A stretch of DNA of 64,000 bases from Janthinobacterium lividum (GTDB taxonomy: Bacteria > Pseudomonadota > Gammaproteobacteria > Burkholderiales > Burkholderiaceae_D). Shown here in pieces: positions 50,356-59,927 of this stretch (positions are counted from its first letter, which is position 1; every line of letters begins with the position of its first letter). The notes under the pieces are model-generated. The model was not told the DNA's origin and searched no databases. It saw nothing but the letters and a program-made list of their open reading frames with translations. The stretch spans positions 3,906,001-3,970,000 of the forward strand of contig NZ_CP075583.1 in NCBI RefSeq assembly GCF_023509035.1, read 5' to 3'. The translations under genes and the position numbers were made by a program.

Positions 50356-50661
50356 TTACTATTTCCTGTGCCGCCGTCCGTGCCCAGGCCAGATATGGTA
50401 TTTCCGCACAGATCGTCAAGTAAATGCAGGTATGGCTGGACGGAAATGTTACATCTGGGTATTCTGCGCATCTGATACTTATTTCTATACAGAAAAAGGT
50501 AAGAGGGCGGTTCGTGCCGGCGGCAACGCGGTGCGCGCTGCCAGGCAAGGTCAGACATGCAAAGGTGAAGTCGTCCGCTTGCTGAGCGAAACGGTCATGT
50601 TTCGGCTCGCGGTGGGCAGGGAACAGTGCTGTCATCTTTAAAATAGTAGGAGAGGTTGCTC
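50356..50661. other. Intergenic region before the DUF3334 gene
   Basis: This is a 306-base gap, AT-richer near 50390-50500. Overlapping ORFs on both strands do not look like genes. A GGAGAGG ribosome site for the next gene lies at its end. I see no clear terminator or RNA. Confidence 0.4.
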
Positions 50662-51354
50662 ATGGATGCAGAAAAGGATGTTGTGTACGGTACAGAAGAT
50701 TTGTTGATGAGTTTGTGCAACTCGGTGGTTCGGGTGCTCAACGTTGCAACGCAAAGTAAAGTCAATTATTCAGGCATGGTGCAGCGCATCACCAAGACCG
50801 GCCTGAAGCCGGACATCGGTTGCTTCGTGATGTTCGATGGTGGTTTCACGGGCCTGGTGGTGCTCAATTTTGCCGCCGATACGGCGATGGAAATCTACGA
50901 GCGCTACATGTTGCACATGGGTATGCCGAAGTCGGAGCTGGCCAGTTTTTACACGTCGGACGAAGTGTCGAACATCATGGGCGAGCTGATGAACCAGATC
51001 GTGGGCGACTTCACGGGCAAGGTACGGCGCGAGCTGCAAACGAATATCACCCAGAGCCAGCCGAAGATGCTGGTGCTGAACAAGCAGGTGATGCTCAGCG
51101 TCGACACGCCGCTGGACCGCCCGGAAATGCGCCGCGTTACTTTCTACACGGAAAAGAACAATATTTTCTATCTGGAACTGGCGATCGACCGTACCGAGTT
51201 CATCAAGTTGCATGATTTCGATTCGCGCGAAGTCGATGCCGATTCGCTGATGGATACGGAATACGCGAACCGCGAACGGGATGCCGCCCCGGCGCCTGCA
51301 GCGGAACCGGAAGACGACGACAACGCCGACCTGCTCAAGTCCCTGGGCATGTAA
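50662..51354 (+). CDS. DUF3334 family protein (CheX-like)
   Basis: The 230-residue soluble protein matches the DUF3334 pattern: TEDLLMSLCNSVVRVLN, PDIGCFVMFDGGFTGLVV, TSDEVSNIMGELMNQIVGDF and KQVMLSVDTPLDRPEMRRVT. The GELMNQIVGDF helix resembles the CheC/CheX phosphatase motif region, so a link to chemotaxis signalling is possible but not proven. The acidic tail (EPEDDDNADLLKSLGM) is typical of a disordered end. A GGAGAGG site supports the ATG at 50662. Confidence 0.85.
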   Translation: MDAEKDVVYGTEDLLMSLCNSVVRVLNVATQSKVNYSGMVQRITKTGLKPDIGCFVMFDGGFTGLVVLNFAADTAMEIYERYMLHMGMPKSELASFYTSDEVSNIMGELMNQIVGDFTGKVRRELQTNITQSQPKMLVLNKQVMLSVDTPLDRPEMRRVTFYTEKNNIFYLELAIDRTEFIKLHDFDSREVDADSLMDTEYANRERDAAPAPAAEPEDDDNADLLKSLGM

Positions 51355-52829: not shown

Positions 52830-54176
52830 ATGTTGAAACGACAGTTATTGTGTATTGATTTGAGTGGCAATGGTTTGCTGCATGGGGCAGGCGTGCAGCA
52901 GTTTGCTGTGGCGTGGGAAGGCTGGCAAGTCTGTACCGTGACAGGCCTGGCGGCTGCGACACGTGCGCTACGCACGCAGACCTTTCCGGTTGGGGTACTG
53001 ATTTCTTCGTTCGATGGGATGGGAGAAATCGACAGTTTCTTGCATCATCATTGGGAGATGCAATGGGTGGGCATTTTTCCACCACCTGCCTTGCAGGCGG
53101 CCGCATGCCGGCGCCTGGTCCGCGACCATTGCCATGATTACCACACTTTGCCTGTCGACATGCTGCGGCTGCGGCATACCCTGGGCCATGCCTACGGCTA
53201 CGCCACTTTGCGAGAGATGCCGGACACGCCTCTGTGCGCGCTGGAACAGGCTGATATGGCGCTCAAGGGCAATGGCGTCGCCATTGGCCGTTTGCGGCGC
53301 CAAATAATCAAGGTCGCTGCTGCCAGCGCGCCGGTGCTGATCTGGGGCGAGTCGGGCAGTGGCAAGGAACTGGCAGCGCAAGCCATACATGTCCATTCCG
53401 CGCGGGCGGCAGGTCCCTTCGTGCCCATCAACTGCGGCGCCATTCCGGCCGGCCTGGCGCAATCGGAGCTGTTTGGCCATGAACGGGGCGCCTTCACGGG
53501 AGCCACGCGCGACAAGCGGGGCTTGATCGAGTCAGCGGCCGGAGGCACGATATTTCTTGACGAGATAGGCGACTTGCCGCTCCCCCTGCAAACCAATTTG
53601 CTGCGCTTTCTGCAGGAAAAAACGATTTACCGTGTCGGCGCCACGCAGAGCACTGCTGTTGACGCGCGCGTCATTGCTGCTTCGCATGTCAATTTGCTGG
53701 AGGCAGTGCAGCAGGGGAAATTTCGCGAGGATTTGTACTACCGGCTCAACGTGCTGGCGCTCGATGTCCCTCCTTTGCGCGACAGGAAGGAAGACTTGAT
53801 GTTGCTGGCAAATCATTTTTTTGCCACCTATGTGGCGGAGCGGGCGCCGATGGTCAAAGGCTTCAGCAACGCTGCCGTCGAGGCGATTTGCAATTATGCC
53901 TGGCCGGGCAATGTGCGCGAATTGATCAACCGGGTGCGACGCGCCATGGTGATGGCGGAAGGCCGGGCGATCATGCCGCAAGACCTGGGCTTGTCCGTTG
54001 CGGACGCGCCAGGCGCCGATGTCGCACTCGGCAGTATTCGCTTGCGCTCGGACCGTGACGCCGTGCAGGCATGCCTGGCCAGTGCCGGCAGCAATGTCAG
54101 CAAGGCCGCACGCGATCTGGGCGTGTCTCGCATGACGCTGTACCGGATGATCAAAAAGCTCAATATCGAATGTTGA
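52830..54176 (+). CDS. Sigma-54-dependent transcriptional activator (VpsR-like)
   Basis: The 448-residue protein has an N-terminal receiver-like domain (about 1-130) without the usual phospho-acceptor DxR motif, then an AAA+ sigma-54 activation domain (150-390): Walker A GESGSGKE (173-180), GAFTGA (220-225), Walker B GGTIFLDEIGD (238-248), and a Fis-type HTH at the end (NVSKAARDLGVSRMTLYRMI). It should bind upstream sites and open sigma-54 promoters by ATP hydrolysis. A consensus -24/-12 promoter lies in the gap to the next operon on the same strand. The ATG at 52830 follows GGAGG; the frame from 52734 is longer but unsupported. Confidence 0.92.
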   Translation: MLKRQLLCIDLSGNGLLHGAGVQQFAVAWEGWQVCTVTGLAAATRALRTQTFPVGVLISSFDGMGEIDSFLHHHWEMQWVGIFPPPALQAAACRRLVRDHCHDYHTLPVDMLRLRHTLGHAYGYATLREMPDTPLCALEQADMALKGNGVAIGRLRRQIIKVAAASAPVLIWGESGSGKELAAQAIHVHSARAAGPFVPINCGAIPAGLAQSELFGHERGAFTGATRDKRGLIESAAGGTIFLDEIGDLPLPLQTNLLRFLQEKTIYRVGATQSTAVDARVIAASHVNLLEAVQQGKFREDLYYRLNVLALDVPPLRDRKEDLMLLANHFFATYVAERAPMVKGFSNAAVEAICNYAWPGNVRELINRVRRAMVMAEGRAIMPQDLGLSVADAPGADVALGSIRLRSDRDAVQACLASAGSNVSKAARDLGVSRMTLYRMIKKLNIEC

Positions 54177-54458
54177 ACCTGACGCCTCAGCGGACGTTTT
54201 TTGTCCTGCGTGTGGATAGCCGTAGCGAAAACGGTGTAACATGATTGATACAGTCGCAGGACGGGCATGATGTTCTGCAAGTTCTTGATTTTGAATGGAT
54301 ATTTCTGTTTTTTCAAGGCGGTTCTGAAAAGTGGGTGGCGCACAGCTGTGACAGTTTTTCGTTTTTTGTTTGCCAAGTTTCCTAGGGGAATGCCCTGTAA
54401 GCCGAAGCTCATCGAATAAGGCGTTGTAATTCAATGGCTTGGCTCAGTGCTTTATCGC

Positions 54459-54474
54459 TGGCACCAAATTTGCT
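54459..54474 (+). promoter_or_regulatory. Sigma-54 (-24/-12) promoter of the secretion operon
   Basis: TGGCAC-CAAAT-TTGCT has GG at 54460-54461 and GC at 54472-54473, the exact 12-base spacing of the sigma-54 consensus. It lies 69 bases before the first operon gene and downstream of the sigma-54 activator gene; the transcript should start near 54485. The rest of the 54177-54542 gap holds no gene but must contain activator sites, which I cannot pick out. Confidence 0.8.
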
Positions 54475-54542
54475 GTGAAGCTATGGACCCGACGAGTCAG
54501 TCTGGTGCCAGCATCCTGATTAACTTTTAAAGAGGAACTGCA

Positions 54543-56090
54543 ATGAAAAAAACTCTCATAGCGGCAGCGATCACGCTGGCCTTTAGCTTCAGCGTCCATG
54601 CCCAGAACAATGGCTCGACCAGGGTCGATGATGTCACGGGTGTCAATACCCAGACGGCGAGCAACACCACGACACTGTCTGGCGCCGGGCCCGGGGCGAA
54701 CGGGCATTCCACCGCTACGCAAGATAATAACTCGGACCAGAATAACGACAAGAGCACAGGGCAAAACAATAGCAGCGGCAACGCGAATGCCAGTGCGCTG
54801 GGTGCATCCGCAGCAAACAATGGCGGCACCAGCACCAGTAGCGCGGCAAATGCCTTCAATACTTCGACGGCAACGGCAGCGAGCACCCTGAGTGGCGCGG
54901 TGTCGGGCAACCAGGTCAGTAACATCGGCAATTACGCTACCAATAGTGGCAATACCAACGGTGGCACAGGCAAGGGTGGCATCGGCGGCAGTGCACTGGG
55001 CGGCAGCGCCTTTGGCAAGGGCGGCTCGGGTGGCGATGCCACCGGTGGCGCAGGCGCCGCGGGTGCGAGCGGTGGAAACGCCAGGAATGGCAGTGCCATC
55101 AATGGCGCAGCGGTCGTGGGCGACAGCACGGCCGGTGCAGGTGGCGCAGGCGGACTGGCCAAGAATGCCAGTAGCGGGGACGCCGGTGCTGGCGGAGCAG
55201 GCGGCGCAGGTGGCCGCGGTGCGGCCGGTGGTGATATCTATGGCGGCAACGGCGGCAGGGGTGGCTTGGCAGGCAGTGCCACGGGCGGCGCTGGCGGCGA
55301 TACTGGCCGCACGTCAGGCGGCAACGGCGGCGATAGCGGCCAATCCATCGGCGGTGCAGGTGGCGACGGTGGCTACAGCCGTAGCGCCGCTGGCGGCGAT
55401 GGCGGTAGCGGCAGTGCCAACAGCCACGCCAGAAATGCGGGTGGTGGCGTCTCCACTTCCACCGGTGGTACTGGGACGGGCGGTGCCGGTGGTGCCGGTG
55501 GCACCAATACAGCTGGTGCAGGTGCCGCAGGCGGTGGAAGTGGCTCAGGTGCCGGTGGTGCTGGCGCTGCATTGACGAGTACCGGTGGCGCCGGGGCCGC
55601 GGCAACTGGTGGTGCCGGTGGTGCCGGTGGTGCTGGCGCGGGTGGTACCAGCACTGGCGGCAGCGGCGCCGCTGGTGCGGCGGGCGGCAGTGGCGGCAGC
55701 AGCGGGCTGGCGCAAAACACGGGTGGCGCCGGTGCGGCTGGCGGCAGTTCCAGCAATGGCAGCGCAACAAACGGTTCGCCTTCGAACGGCAGCGCCAATG
55801 CCGGTGCTGGCGGCGCTGGCGGTGCCGGTGGCGGCGGCAATACCGCTGGCGCTGGCGGTAGCGGTGGCACGAACACTGCCGGCGCGGCAACTGGCGGTGC
55901 GGGCGCTGGCGGCACCGGTGGTGCTGGCGGTACGGTGGCTGTCAATGCAGGCGCTTTCGACATGTCCAATACCATGACCGGTACCGCGCAGTCGGCGGCC
56001 GGCTTGCTGGTCATCAGCCAGAACAGCGGTATTTCTTCGCTGATACAGCAAAGTGTGACGGTGCAGGCCAATCTGGCAGTGGGACACTAA
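54543..56090 (+). CDS. Secreted Gly/Ala/Ser-rich repeat protein, candidate main cargo of the Fap-like operon
   Basis: The 515-residue protein has a signal peptide (MKKTLIAAAITLAFSFSVHA), an Asn/Ser/Thr-rich zone (22-115), a long GGA/GGX low-complexity tract resembling mycobacterial PE_PGRS or silk (120-460), and a conserved-looking C-terminus AAGLLVISQNSGISSLIQQS followed by VTVQANL. The same [VI]IQNS-type signature recurs in the two other small secreted proteins of the operon. It has no cysteines after the signal peptide. A fibre, matrix or surface-coat role is inferred from composition and the FapD/FapF-like neighbours. An AGAGGA site precedes the ATG. The tract is coded by GGCGGT-type repeats that can slip. 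Confidence 0.85.
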   Translation: MKKTLIAAAITLAFSFSVHAQNNGSTRVDDVTGVNTQTASNTTTLSGAGPGANGHSTATQDNNSDQNNDKSTGQNNSSGNANASALGASAANNGGTSTSSAANAFNTSTATAASTLSGAVSGNQVSNIGNYATNSGNTNGGTGKGGIGGSALGGSAFGKGGSGGDATGGAGAAGASGGNARNGSAINGAAVVGDSTAGAGGAGGLAKNASSGDAGAGGAGGAGGRGAAGGDIYGGNGGRGGLAGSATGGAGGDTGRTSGGNGGDSGQSIGGAGGDGGYSRSAAGGDGGSGSANSHARNAGGGVSTSTGGTGTGGAGGAGGTNTAGAGAAGGGSGSGAGGAGAALTSTGGAGAAATGGAGGAGGAGAGGTSTGGSGAAGAAGGSGGSSGLAQNTGGAGAAGGSSSNGSATNGSPSNGSANAGAGGAGGAGGGGNTAGAGGSGGTNTAGAATGGAGAGGTGGAGGTVAVNAGAFDMSNTMTGTAQSAAGLLVISQNSGISSLIQQSVTVQANLAVGH

Positions 56091-56112
56091 GCTAGCGCTT
56101 GCTTGGTGTCAG

Positions 56113-56141
56113 GCTCCGCCGCGGCAATGCCGCGGCGGAGC
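56113..56141 (+). terminator. 13-base perfect hairpin after the Gly-rich gene
   Basis: GCTCCGCCGCGGC pairs perfectly with GCCGCGGCGGAGC around an AAT loop, 22 bases after the stop codon. There is no T-run, so it may act as a transcript-stabilising or attenuating stem that leaves most message on the cargo gene, rather than a full stop. Confidence 0.55.
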
Positions 56142-56169
56142 ATCGCAAGTCATGAACAAGGGGATGAGC

Positions 56170-56604
56170 ATGCGCCTTTTTTTTCATTCGATATGCTGTG
56201 CCAGCCTGGTCTGTCTTTCCACAGGCGCCATGGCTGCACAGGAAGCAAGGGCGCTGCCCTTGCTTGCCGGGCCAGAGTTGAGTCTACAGATTGTTGCTCT
56301 GACGAACACTTCGCTGACGGCGCTGATGCCGTTGACGGCGGATAGAACTTTTGCCGGGAGCCTTGGCCGGCCCGCTGGCGAATACGCGCTGGATCAGGCG
56401 CGTGGCGGCACCGATACCGTTACCAATGAAGCGCGCCTGAGTGGCTTTGTCACTGGTAACTCGGCCAGCTACATCAGCACGGGGGCCAACACCATCGATG
56501 GCGCCGCGTTTGCCAACGCCTCCGGCATCCCGATCGTCATTCAGAACTCGGGCGCCAATGTGTTGATCCAGAACGCCACCATCATCAATTTGCAGTTGCG
56601 CTAG
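56170..56604 (+). CDS. Small secreted protein of the Fap-like operon with an LDQARGG motif
   Basis: The 144-residue protein has a signal peptide (MRLFFHSICCASLVCLSTGA, ending AMAAQ), then a spacer, an LDQARGG motif at 74-80 and a C-terminal segment (PIVIQNSGANVLIQNATIIN) that resembles the C-terminus of the Gly-rich protein. Double-glycine motifs are cut sites for C39 peptidases such as the one encoded next. Start choice: the ATG at 56170 has AGGGG 6 bases upstream; ATGs at 56152 and 56164 are also possible. A minor subunit or nucleator is likely by analogy with Fap. Confidence 0.75.
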   Translation: MRLFFHSICCASLVCLSTGAMAAQEARALPLLAGPELSLQIVALTNTSLTALMPLTADRTFAGSLGRPAGEYALDQARGGTDTVTNEARLSGFVTGNSASYISTGANTIDGAAFANASGIPIVIQNSGANVLIQNATIINLQLR

Positions 56605-56606
56605 GC

Positions 56607-57347
56607 ATGACGATATCCAGCACATTCTCGCTGCTCATGCTGTGCCTGCCTTTACTTGGCGGGCTGGCATCCCCAAGCGCTGGCGCGGCCGATATCGGCG
56701 CCTTCGGCAGCGCGCGCTTTGATGTGCCAGTTATCAGCATGCGCGAGGCGCGTTTCCAGCGCACCTTGCATCAGCAATACGACTTCAGTTGTGGTTCCGC
56801 CGCGGTGGCCACCCTGCTGACCCATCATTACGCCGATCCTGTGACGGAGGAGTTTGTTTTTGAGCAAATGTACCAGCAAGGTGATCAGCAAAAGATCCGC
56901 CGCGAAGGATTTTCCTTGCTCGATATTAAGCGTTTCCTTGGGACCCGAGGCTTTCTGGCCGATGGGTTTCAGTTGCCGCTGGATAAGTTAGTCGAGGCGG
57001 GCTTTCCCGCCATCGTGCTGGTGGCCGAGAAAGGCTACCGGCATTTTGTCGTGGTCAAGGGGCTGAACCAGAGCCGCGTGTTGATCGGTGATCCGGCCGG
57101 CGGCACGCGGGCCATGCCGCGCGCCGGTTTCGAGGCGATCTGGCAGGGCCGTTTGCTGTTTGTGATCCATGGACGCGCGACGCCGGCCACACCGGGCCCG
57201 GCGGCGGCTGAGGTGGCAATGCAGGAGGCCCGCTTCAATGATGTCGATGACTGGCGCGCGGCGCCGCAAGCGCCACTGGGGATGGCGATCAGCCGCAGCG
57301 GCCTCGATCAGATCACCATGCCGAAGAATGATGGTGGGAATTTTTAA
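56607..57347 (+). CDS. C39 family peptidase, FapD-like
   Basis: The 246-residue protein has a signal peptide (to about residue 28, ending AGAAD) and a papain-like C39 domain with Cys62 in QYDFSCGSAAVATLL, His146 in YRHFVVVKG and Asp162 in IGDPAGG. C39 enzymes cut after double-glycine leaders; FapD in Pseudomonas is a periplasmic member required for amyloid export. The two small proteins beside it carry QARGG, a matching candidate cut site. It starts 2 bases after the preceding stop. Confidence 0.9.
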   Translation: MTISSTFSLLMLCLPLLGGLASPSAGAADIGAFGSARFDVPVISMREARFQRTLHQQYDFSCGSAAVATLLTHHYADPVTEEFVFEQMYQQGDQQKIRREGFSLLDIKRFLGTRGFLADGFQLPLDKLVEAGFPAIVLVAEKGYRHFVVVKGLNQSRVLIGDPAGGTRAMPRAGFEAIWQGRLLFVIHGRATPATPGPAAAEVAMQEARFNDVDDWRAAPQAPLGMAISRSGLDQITMPKNDGGNF

Positions 57348-57376
57348 TGGCGGGCAAACGCCGCGCTGGAGGATGT

Positions 57377-57880
57377 ATGCACAAGAAAGAGCGGTGGATG
57401 GCTGCCAGCCTGGCGTGCCTGCTTGTTGCCGCGCAGAATGCTTACGCCGCACTGCCCGAAGCGGGATGGACGGCGGTCAGCGATGAAACGCTGGAGCAGG
57501 CACGGGGCGGCTTCGACATGCCAGGTGGCTTGAGCCTGTCTTTGGGAATCGAGCGCCTGGTCAGCATCAATGGCAACGTGGTTTCCAGCGTGGCGTTCAC
57601 GATTGCCGATGTGGCGCACCTGAGCGTCGAGGAAGCGAGCCTGGCGCGTACGGCAATCACGTCGATGAATGTCTTGCAAAATGGCGCCGGCAACGTATTT
57701 TCACCAGGCCCGATGGCGCAAACGATGGCCGGCACCGTGATCCAGAACAGCTTGAATGACCAGGTCTTGCGCACCCAGACGATCGTCAATAGCAGCGTGA
57801 ACAGTCTTGCATTGCTGAAGTTGGCGAACTTTCAGGACACCTTGCAAAATGCGCTAAGCACGGTGGCAGGTCCCAAATAG
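57377..57880 (+). CDS. Small secreted FapE-like protein with an LEQARGG motif
   Basis: The 167-residue protein has a signal peptide (MHKKERWMAASLACLLVAAQ, ending NAYA), a short acidic propeptide, an LEQARGG motif with the two glycines at residues 44-45, then a domain (GLSLSLGIERLVSINGNVVS) and a TVIQNSLNDQVLR segment. This layout (leader, double glycine, mature part) fits a C39 substrate. The ATG at 57377 has GGAGG 5 bases upstream; the ATG at 57347 overlaps the peptidase stop and lacks a site. Confidence 0.8.
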   Translation: MHKKERWMAASLACLLVAAQNAYAALPEAGWTAVSDETLEQARGGFDMPGGLSLSLGIERLVSINGNVVSSVAFTIADVAHLSVEEASLARTAITSMNVLQNGAGNVFSPGPMAQTMAGTVIQNSLNDQVLRTQTIVNSSVNSLALLKLANFQDTLQNALSTVAGPK

Positions 57881-57996
57881 GGTTTTCAGCAAGCCGCCTG
57901 GATTCCCCGGGCGGTATCGTGCAGTAGCGCCGGGCCTTTGCGGTGGTGTTGCCAGGGCCGGCTACTGACAGGCAGGGCTTGTCATCGGGAGAGACT

Positions 57997-59333
57997 ATGC
58001 GGCATCTTTACTTATTGCGATTCGGTACGGTGGGTGTGTCGGCGTTGCTGCTGTGTACGGCTGTTCAGGCCCAGCAATCGCCCGGCACCGGCCAGGATGA
58101 TCTGGTGGCGCAGTTGGCAAGCCTGAAGGCGCAACTGGCCGAACAGCGGCAGCAGCTGGAACTGCTGCGTGCATCGATGCAAGAGCAGCAGCACCGCATT
58201 GAGGTGCTGCAGGGCGCTGCGCCTCTCGACAATAACCTCCTGGCCAGGCAGCGGGGCACGGGTTTGCGGGGGGCATATCTGTCGCTGGCCGAGGCTCAGG
58301 ACACCGTGTCCGCTCCGGAGACGCCGCCGCCATCGACGCCCCAGCCGGTGGGGCAAGCTCCCAGCCCCCCATCCGGCCGCCTGAGGTGGCGCCGCTGTTC
58401 GAGCAGCCAGGCGTGCTGACGGCCAAGGGGAAATATGTGCTGGAACCGTCGATGCAATTCGGTTACTCGTCCAGCAATAGGGTCGCCCTGGTCGGTTACA
58501 CCATTATTCCCGCATTGTTGATCGGTTTGATCGATGTGCGCGAAGTCAAGCGCAATACCTTCACGGCCGCCCTGGCCGTGCGTACCGGCTTGAGCAACCG
58601 TCTTGAAGTCGAAGCCAAGGTGCCCTATGTCTATCGTTCTGATGCCACCGTCAGCCGCGAACTGTTTACGGGCACGGCCGTAGAGCGGGTTTTCGACACC
58701 AGCGGGCGCGCCTTGGGCGATATCGAGGTGGCCGCCCGTTACCAACTGAACAATGGCGGCACCGATAAGCCATACTACGTGGCCGGCCTGCGCTTCAAGT
58801 CGCGCACCGGACGCGATCCGTTCGAGGTTGTCACCGACTGTACGCAACGCTGCGTGGGCGAGAATGTGACTGGTACGGGCTTGCCGATGGACTTGCCCAC
58901 CGGCTCCGGTTTCTATTCCCTGCAGCCCAGCCTGACCTGGCTGTTTCCCTCTGATCCGGCCGTATTCTTTGGCAGCATCAGCTACCTGCACAGCTTCAAG
59001 CGCACCGATGTCAGCCGCCTGGTGCTCAATGGCGTACGCGAACCTCTGGGCACCATCGAGCCTGGGAAAATTTTCGGCGTGAATTTCGGCATCGGCCTGG
59101 CGCTGAATGAAAAGGCGTCGCTCAGCCTGGGCTACGATCACAGCAGCGTTGGACGCACGCGTCAAAATGGCGTGACCGTGCCCGGTTCCGTGCGCACGCA
59201 GCTTGGCACCTTGCTGATGGGGTTTTCGTATCGCCTTAGCAAGGACCGGAGCTTGAACGTGTCGGTGGGCGCCGGTCTGACGCGCGACACCCCGGACGTT
59301 TCCATTTCGGTCCGGGTGCCGATGACCTTTTAA
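57997..59333 (+). CDS. FapF-like outer-membrane barrel with coiled-coil plug, one frameshift
   Basis: About 445 residues after repair. A signal peptide ending AVQAQQ is followed by a coiled coil (about 33-75; LVAQLASLKAQLAEQRQQLE), a Pro-rich linker and a barrel of about 300 residues ending in Phe (SVRVPMTF), the BAM-recognition end. FapF of Pseudomonas has the same coiled-coil-plus-barrel plan and exports Fap amyloid subunits. The linker crosses a C run at 58365-58370; one added base joins the frames (giving PPIRPPEVAPLFEQ). GGGAGAG precedes the ATG. It should secrete the operon's cargo. Confidence 0.82.
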
Positions 59334-59384: not shown

Positions 59385-59927
59385 CTAGCGGCCAGCCATC
59401 GCCGACGCAATCTCGATCGAACTCAGTTTCCAGCCCCACACGCCATGGCGAAGCAGGACCAGCGCGCCTTCCTGCGCATTGCCATCCTTCGCCCGCACAA
59501 TGAAGGTGTTTACGCCGGCATAGCCTGCCGAATAGTTGGCCTTCTTCTGCGCGCCATCGGCGGGCGCATCCGTATTCGCATCTGCTTGCGGGCTGACGGC
59601 GCTCTTGTTGACCAGCGCGACGACGCCGGCAGGCGAGACCATGGTGTCGACCATCTTGCCCAGCATGGCGCTGGCGATCGACTCCCCCAGGGCGGCCAGC
59701 GGGTTGCCGCTGCCGGCTGTCGCTTCGATGCTGCGGGCCATGCTGGCTTCCAGCTGCGTCTTGACGCTGGTGCGCAAGGCTGGGAAGTCCACATGTGCGG
59801 CCAAGGCTTCGGCATTGCGTTCGGCCAGCGCAGCCTTGATCTGGTGCAAGGCGTAATACGGCGAAGCATAGGCGGTGACAGCGACGGCAATGACGGCTAC
59901 GGCCGCGGCGATAGTGATTTTTTTCAA
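59385..59927 (-). CDS. DUF2939 family exported protein
   Basis: The 180-residue protein has an N-terminal membrane or signal helix (MKKITIAAAVAVIAVAVTAY) followed by the DUF2939 pattern SPYYALHQIKAALAERNAEA, HVDFPALRTSVKTQLEASMA and a C-terminal WGWKLSSIEI. The function is unknown. It is convergent with the FapF-like gene. Confidence 0.88.
   Translation of the reverse strand: MKKITIAAAVAVIAVAVTAYASPYYALHQIKAALAERNAEALAAHVDFPALRTSVKTQLEASMARSIEATAGSGNPLAALGESIASAMLGKMVDTMVSPAGVVALVNKSAVSPQADANTDAPADGAQKKANYSAGYAGVNTFIVRAKDGNAQEGALVLLRHGVWGWKLSSIEIASAMAGR

Follow-up and report, generated by a model that had tools for sequence, protein, structure and literature searches.

We analyzed a stretch of 64,000 nucleotides from Janthinobacterium lividum (contig NZ_CP075583.1, positions 3,906,001 to 3,970,000; hereafter the window, numbered from its first letter). 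At 52830..59333 of its forward strand lies a cassette encoding a sigma-54 activator, a large glycine-rich cargo, two small secreted proteins (SM1 and SM2), a C39 peptidase, and a coiled-coil outer-membrane barrel. Our analysis makes it fairly probable that this locus is a conserved sister system of Fap amyloid export, in which the core of the glycine-rich subunit is split. An earlier sequence-only reading had proposed a Fap-like export system whose main cargo is silk/PGRS-like and not FapB/FapC-like. The Fap-like machinery is borne out by a FapD-like and a FapF-like component, to which a probably FapE-like SM2, unnamed in that reading, can be added, and the description of the cargo holds in part.

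A conserved cassette with FapD-like and FapF-like machinery

The C39 peptidase (56607..57347) matches PF03412 at 7e-20 in Pfam and carries an apparent signal peptide, signal peptides at this locus having been assigned by eye only. Its residues C62, H146, and D162 are invariant in 23/23 aligned peptidases, including those of other locus types, and the sequence-only reading was right in the span of the locus as well as in the residue numbers. The FapD model NF058616 scores 127.7 bits against a curated cut-off of 330. As this cut-off is reached by 0/200 and 0/274 sampled genomes, some of which hold Fap-repeat loci, it does not discriminate here, and by homology the enzyme is a FapD-type C39 peptidase. 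Likewise, the barrel part of the last gene (58386..59333) has FapF (5o67) as its closest solved relative (E 1.1e-27) and scores 140.6 bits with NF058560 against a curated cut-off of 700; by homology, it is a FapF-type outer-membrane barrel, with a frame that is broken in this genome.

We examined 92 stretches, of which 91 contain a C39 peptidase (L081 does not), and assigned 61 loci to this type, 13 to Fap, and 17 to others; the duplicates L065, L066, L068, L070, and L072, and also L074, L075, L077, L078, and L079, were omitted from the tally. A locus was labeled as this type when SM1 or SM2 was found, with profiles built partly from the same loci, so that the near-complete counts of SM1 (58/61), SM2 (61/61), and both together (58/61) are partly built in. 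The barrel, activator, promoter, and C39 tree are independent of this label. A barrel is present in 56/61 loci, a related activator within the stretch examined in 44/61, and a large cargo, strictly defined, in 43/61, with 7 further loci holding a cargo that this definition misses; several stretches of this type end at a contig end. Both small proteins, the barrel, the activator, and the strictly defined cargo occur together in 39/61 loci. Fap repeats and FapE are present in 13/13 Fap loci and SM1 or SM2 in 0/13, and the Fap-repeat profile that matches 13/13 Fap loci has no match in the loci of this type (0/61). Two genomes (G170 and G247) each have a Fap-repeat locus plus a locus of this type. 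The profile of the cargo C terminus matches 16/200 genomes of the order draw and 8/274 of the class draw (23 distinct genomes), with a FapD-family match within ~1.2 kb on the same contig in 23/23, and SM1 matches are found in 9/274 genomes of the class draw.

The unrooted C39 tree has 86 rows, none of which is a named Pseudomonas FapD, and omits 5 of the 91 loci (L035, L044, L061, L062, and L218). In it, a single branch separates this type from all other rows (57 rows, Shimodaira–Hasegawa-like approximate likelihood ratio test (SH-aLRT) 99) and another does so for Fap (13 rows, 99), with 16 others together at 57. The window peptidase thus lies outside the canonical Fap clade as this tree delimits it, and its own clade has members among the Beta- and Gammaproteobacteria as well as in Geotalea. 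The case that the sequence-only reading had named against itself, such machinery accompanied by standard FapB/FapC, does occur in 13 loci, but these form the separate clade. In Massilia phosphatilytica (L030), the cassette is duplicated in tandem on one contig, with the first copy cut by the contig end.

The activator gene and the −24/−12 promoter claimed earlier were both recovered. The activator (52830..54176) contains a VpsR-like N domain (PF20161, 1.1e-11), an AAA+ domain (PF00158, 5.5e-66), and a Fis-type helix-turn-helix (HTH_8) in Pfam. The promoter (54459..54474), located 69 nucleotides 5′ of the cargo ATG, is the sole zero-mismatch match within the window, where 52 matches at two or fewer mismatches compare with 55 expected by chance. 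Across loci of this type, a site with at most one mismatch precedes 40/47 large-cargo genes (20 exact) at 43 to 115 nucleotides from the chosen cargo ATG, and the remaining 7/47 have a site with two or three mismatches; two rows that are SM1 or out of frame (L060_8147 and L073_4839) are omitted from this count. With its promoter and adjoining activator gene, the locus is predicted to be under sigma-54-dependent regulation. A related sigma-54 activator is also present, within the stretch examined, in 9/13 Fap loci (L080, L135, L137, L213–L215, and L220–L222).

The coiled-coil barrel described earlier is FapF-like as claimed and is not a single gene here, in that the N part with its signal peptide, coiled coil, and linker (57997..58419) and the barrel part lie in different frames. 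In 11/11 genus relatives whose gene is wholly inside a contig, a single barrel frame of 450–490 residues is present. The break is located in a C-rich stretch, and errors are common in C-rich stretches of such single-contig assemblies. Either a sequencing error or a frameshift private to this genome accounts for the split, and because the barrel is frameshifted, the system may be off in this genome. One could go further and regard the whole locus as a dead remnant that is decaying in this genome and yields no product. Besides the barrel gene in two frames, this would fit the patchy presence of the locus in the genus, in which a close barrel match is found in 14/37 genomes (including the window's own and one fragment) and the flank spacing is variable. 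However, apart from the barrel the reading frames are open and conserved, the promoter shows no mismatch, the relatives are intact, and the break sits in just such an error-prone stretch, so that we consider decay of the locus improbable. The flanking genes 50656..51354 and 59385..59927 both occur within 10 kb in 26 genus genomes, with a spacing of 7.8–9.2 kb in the 6 genomes holding the locus there and of 0.02–3.8 kb in 20, and the cassette has therefore been gained or lost as a unit. In G011 and G013, the cassette is found at another place.

A core unit probably divided by a glycine-rich insertion

The large cargo (54543..56090) is, as the sequence-only reading had it, a Gly/Ala-rich secreted-looking protein, with 515 residues, 31% Gly, and both ends kept in 21 aligned relatives. 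Comparing it with SM1 (56152..56604, 150 residues), which holds the core unit undivided, suggests that the same unit is present in the cargo in two halves. Residues 114–130 (54882..54932) align with "LSGFVTGNSA" of SM1 by HHalign (E 7.5e-4, probability 25%, 0/60 shuffles as good) and would represent the N-half, and the conserved C-terminal unit (55935..56087), which is homologous to SM1 and to the tandem-repeat cargos of sister loci, would represent the C-half. The PGRS-like insertion (54957..55937), with 43% Gly over residues 141–465 and a weak three-residue periodicity (z 4.0 at lag 3), is positioned between these halves. By sequence comparison, the Gly-rich part is an insertion within one unit of the kind that builds the tandem-repeat cargos, such as those of L054, L209, and L210, along which the core unit is repeated. 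Patterns written post hoc were used to choose the seeds for the tandem repeat (9 segments, of which one is from L054) and the VGN set (102 segments), which favors their E-values; the cargo N-half and SM1 were not so chosen.

The C-terminal unit is common to cargos with unlike middles, which are Gly-rich, DNS-rich, or tandem. Of the 45 loci of this type that were scored, 10 have <20% Gly in the cargo slot, so that the PGRS-like part represents one elaboration and does not define the cargo of this type; the silk/PGRS-like main cargo proposed earlier therefore describes the protein found here and not the type. Four loci (L036, L046, L048, and L052) have two consecutive large Gly-rich cargo genes 5′ of SM1. 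In L209, an extra tandem-repeat cargo gene (L209:7658-8644) lies 3′ of SM2 on the same strand, and another precedes SM1.

The view that the cargo is not FapB/FapC-like stands insofar as Fap repeats are lacking throughout this type by profile and fails insofar as homology links the C-terminal unit to tandem-repeat cargos, one of which has a predicted FapC fold. The structure predicted for this cargo, from L054, shows a tentative match to the FapC amyloid, and Foldseek ranked FapC first for the model (E 0.11). A PDB sequence search with the tandem-repeat profile gave no match at E up to 1, and the cargo matched no Pfam family even at E up to 10; PF27129 is listed for relatives of the tandem-repeat cargos. 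AlphaFold2 produced no usable fold for the Gly-rich cargo from an alignment of 21 rows (predicted local distance difference test 35, predicted template modeling score 0.20), and a homologue search with the whole cargo returned 6 matches only, most likely because of low complexity. HHalign comparisons of the cargo C terminus with the Fap repeat (25/40 shuffles as good; 32/60 with 90 repeats) and with FapE (22/40) were rejected.

These properties of the cargo also bear on a different kind of system, in which a matrix or adhesin is exported that forms no amyloid. The Gly-rich protein would then be a disordered, hydrated PGRS-like coat, the small proteins export factors, and the C-terminal unit a mere secretion signal for the barrel and peptidase. 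A cargo that is mostly low-complexity with no predictable fold suits such a coat, as does a C-terminal unit that is retained in cargos with very different middles, as expected for a signal. However, a signal needs no repetition, and the unit is repeated in the L054, L209, and L210 cargos; in addition, the L054 model tentatively matches an amyloid, that of FapC. We regard a non-amyloid coat as unlikely, albeit the most serious competitor to a Fap-type fiber.

SM1, SM2, and a candidate cleavage motif

Both small secreted proteins of the sequence-only reading were confirmed as genes with apparent signal peptides, SM1 at the position given above and SM2 at 57377..57880. For SM1, the small subunit of the new clade, 7995 candidates were scored, of which at least 2775 are relatives at E ≤ 0.001, and the best 120 of these have no Pfam domain and are nameless or "hypothetical". 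Each protein carries an LxxxRGG motif, LDQARGG in SM1 (56389..56409) and LEQARGG in SM2 (57491..57511). The motif is present in 119 of the best 120 SM1 relatives and, within the loci, in SM1 39/58 and SM2 50/57, and it is rare elsewhere (29/2209 background open reading frames, 0/39 large cargos). The barrel linker in the window contains LARQRGT (58240..58260); a linker LxxxRG occurs in 24/55 barrels, the window's excluded, against 13% of shuffles, a weak enrichment.

SM2 is probably FapE-like. Compared with five FapE sequences by HHalign, it gave E 2.2e-4 and probability 45%, with 0/40 shuffles as good, and its place in the operon and its LxxxRG motif agree with FapE, in which LxxxRG[K/R][Y/F] is present in 12/13 and aligned with the SM2 motif. 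SM1 and SM2 are themselves related (HHalign E 1.2e-9), and SM2 is linked to the core group solely via SM1, because comparisons of the SM2 C terminus with the cargo C terminus (22/40 shuffles as good) and with the tandem repeats (33/60) failed. Also rejected were the SM1 C terminus as a Fap repeat, a likeness first seen by eye (7/40; 5/60 with 90 repeats), the SM2 C terminus as a Fap repeat (21/40), and SM1 as FapE (3/40).

A motif of this form recalls the double-glycine leader consensus with its L at −7, and together with the presence of a C39 peptidase it could indicate export of bacteriocin- or signal-like peptides, with SM1 and SM2 as prepeptides whose C-terminal parts are active and the Gly-rich protein as an accessory. 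Such a system is very improbable here, since no C39-ABC transporter is present among the open reading frames of the locus, the C39 peptidase has an apparent signal peptide of its own, the core of SM1 is common to the cargo, and among solved structures the barrel is closest to FapF. For a Fap-type pathway, the relevant parts of PMC5557850 report that FapC secretion requires the active cysteine of FapD, that FapE is seemingly processed, and that the target of FapD is unclear, with canonical C39 sites lacking in Fap proteins. PMC12822426 (2025) still goes no further than "thought to process" for the action of FapD on FapE and on the part of FapF that lies in the periplasm. We infer that LxxxRGG is the C39 cut site of this type, and LxxxRG[GKR] offers a concrete candidate for where FapD cuts, a point that has long been unclear.

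A sister system of Fap, the explanation we prefer, would work as follows. The sigma-54 activator would switch on the cassette via the −24/−12 promoter, which is conserved among the loci, and the cargo and its helpers would reach the periplasm by their signal peptides. There, the FapD-like peptidase would cleave SM1 and SM2 at LxxxRGG, and perhaps the barrel linker at LxxxRG, and cleavage would license export through the FapF-like barrel, as motif conservation and the published work on FapD and FapE suggest. Once exported, the large cargo and SM1 may stack through their core units as FapC-like Greek-key layers, with the Gly-rich block, near a turn inside the layer, projecting from the fiber as a long loop that could set its surface properties. 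The FapE profile has no match at E < 1e-3 in any of the 61 loci. The match of SM2 to FapE is modest, and 9nqd, a second FapC entry, is absent from the Z list; these two results slightly lower our confidence in this explanation and in the more specific proposal that follows.

A more specific proposal, which we put forward tentatively and think somewhat more likely wrong than right, is that these loci form a separate Fap-type lineage with bottle-brush amyloid fibers. Each subunit would contribute one FapC-like layer split by a loop of ~200–580 residues, Gly-rich here, that is shown at every layer. In the periplasm, the C39 enzyme would act as a genuine double-glycine protease, with LxxxRGG as its site in two subunits that license export and possibly in the linker of the barrel; in FapE, this site would take the form RG[K/R] and be the one cut by FapD. 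The analysis extends export of the Fap kind to a clade in Beta- and Gammaproteobacteria and Geotalea, and suggests that an amyloid layer can bear a huge loop, which, if true, would be relevant to biofilm matrices and display materials.

Comparison with known systems

Our literature search covered open-access papers, with subscription papers and preprints outside its scope. It found none on functional amyloid in Janthinobacterium and nothing on-topic for C39 plus sigma-54 plus glycine-rich secreted systems, for Fap amyloid in Geobacter, Dechloromonas, or Acidithiobacillus, or for FilF/filABCDEF, DUF6160/FilA, or PE_PGRS with polyglycine II. PMC6173800 describes, in the part concerned, co-located fapD and fapF homologues in five additional phyla, and a section of PMC3792158 assigns FapD and FapF to two larger families; the pairing of FapD with FapF is therefore not itself new. 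Sections of PMC3792158 also state that FapA is frequently missing from Fap operons, propose an exposed position and a fiber-tuning role for Fap linkers, and class a many-repeat Acidithiobacillus system under Fap, which may be of the L054 type.

The Fil loci (an Acinetobacter putative pilus, with FilB and FilC in NCBIfam) and the DUF6160 loci share with the window locus a C39 peptidase and a FapF-like barrel, but their peptidases fall outside this clade. Scores with the Fil equivalogs stay below their thresholds (FilB 115.7 bits versus 475, FilC 56.9 versus 630), and no DUF6160 match was found on the window proteins. The DUF6160-type cargos of L140 and L141 (DUF6160 confirmed for L141) carry LxxxTGQ, similar to LxxxRGG. 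Together with the genus relatives L082, L083, and L084, these two loci represent a third type with a C39 peptidase and a barrel.

Mycobacterial PE_PGRS proteins have a long GGA/GGX-rich region, which the cargo resembles. However, the cargo has no PE domain by Pfam and contains a Fap-related conserved unit instead.

Compared with Fap of Pseudomonas (FapABCDEF), the locus differs in its separate C39 clade, in the lack of Fap repeats by profile, in a core unit of another sequence type with a Gly-rich insertion, and in having RGG where Fap has RG[K/R]. However, the two systems have in common a FapD-like C39 peptidase, a probable FapE-like protein, a coiled-coil FapF-like barrel, large and small secreted subunits in a similar gene order, and, in most of the Fap-type loci, a related sigma-54 activator.

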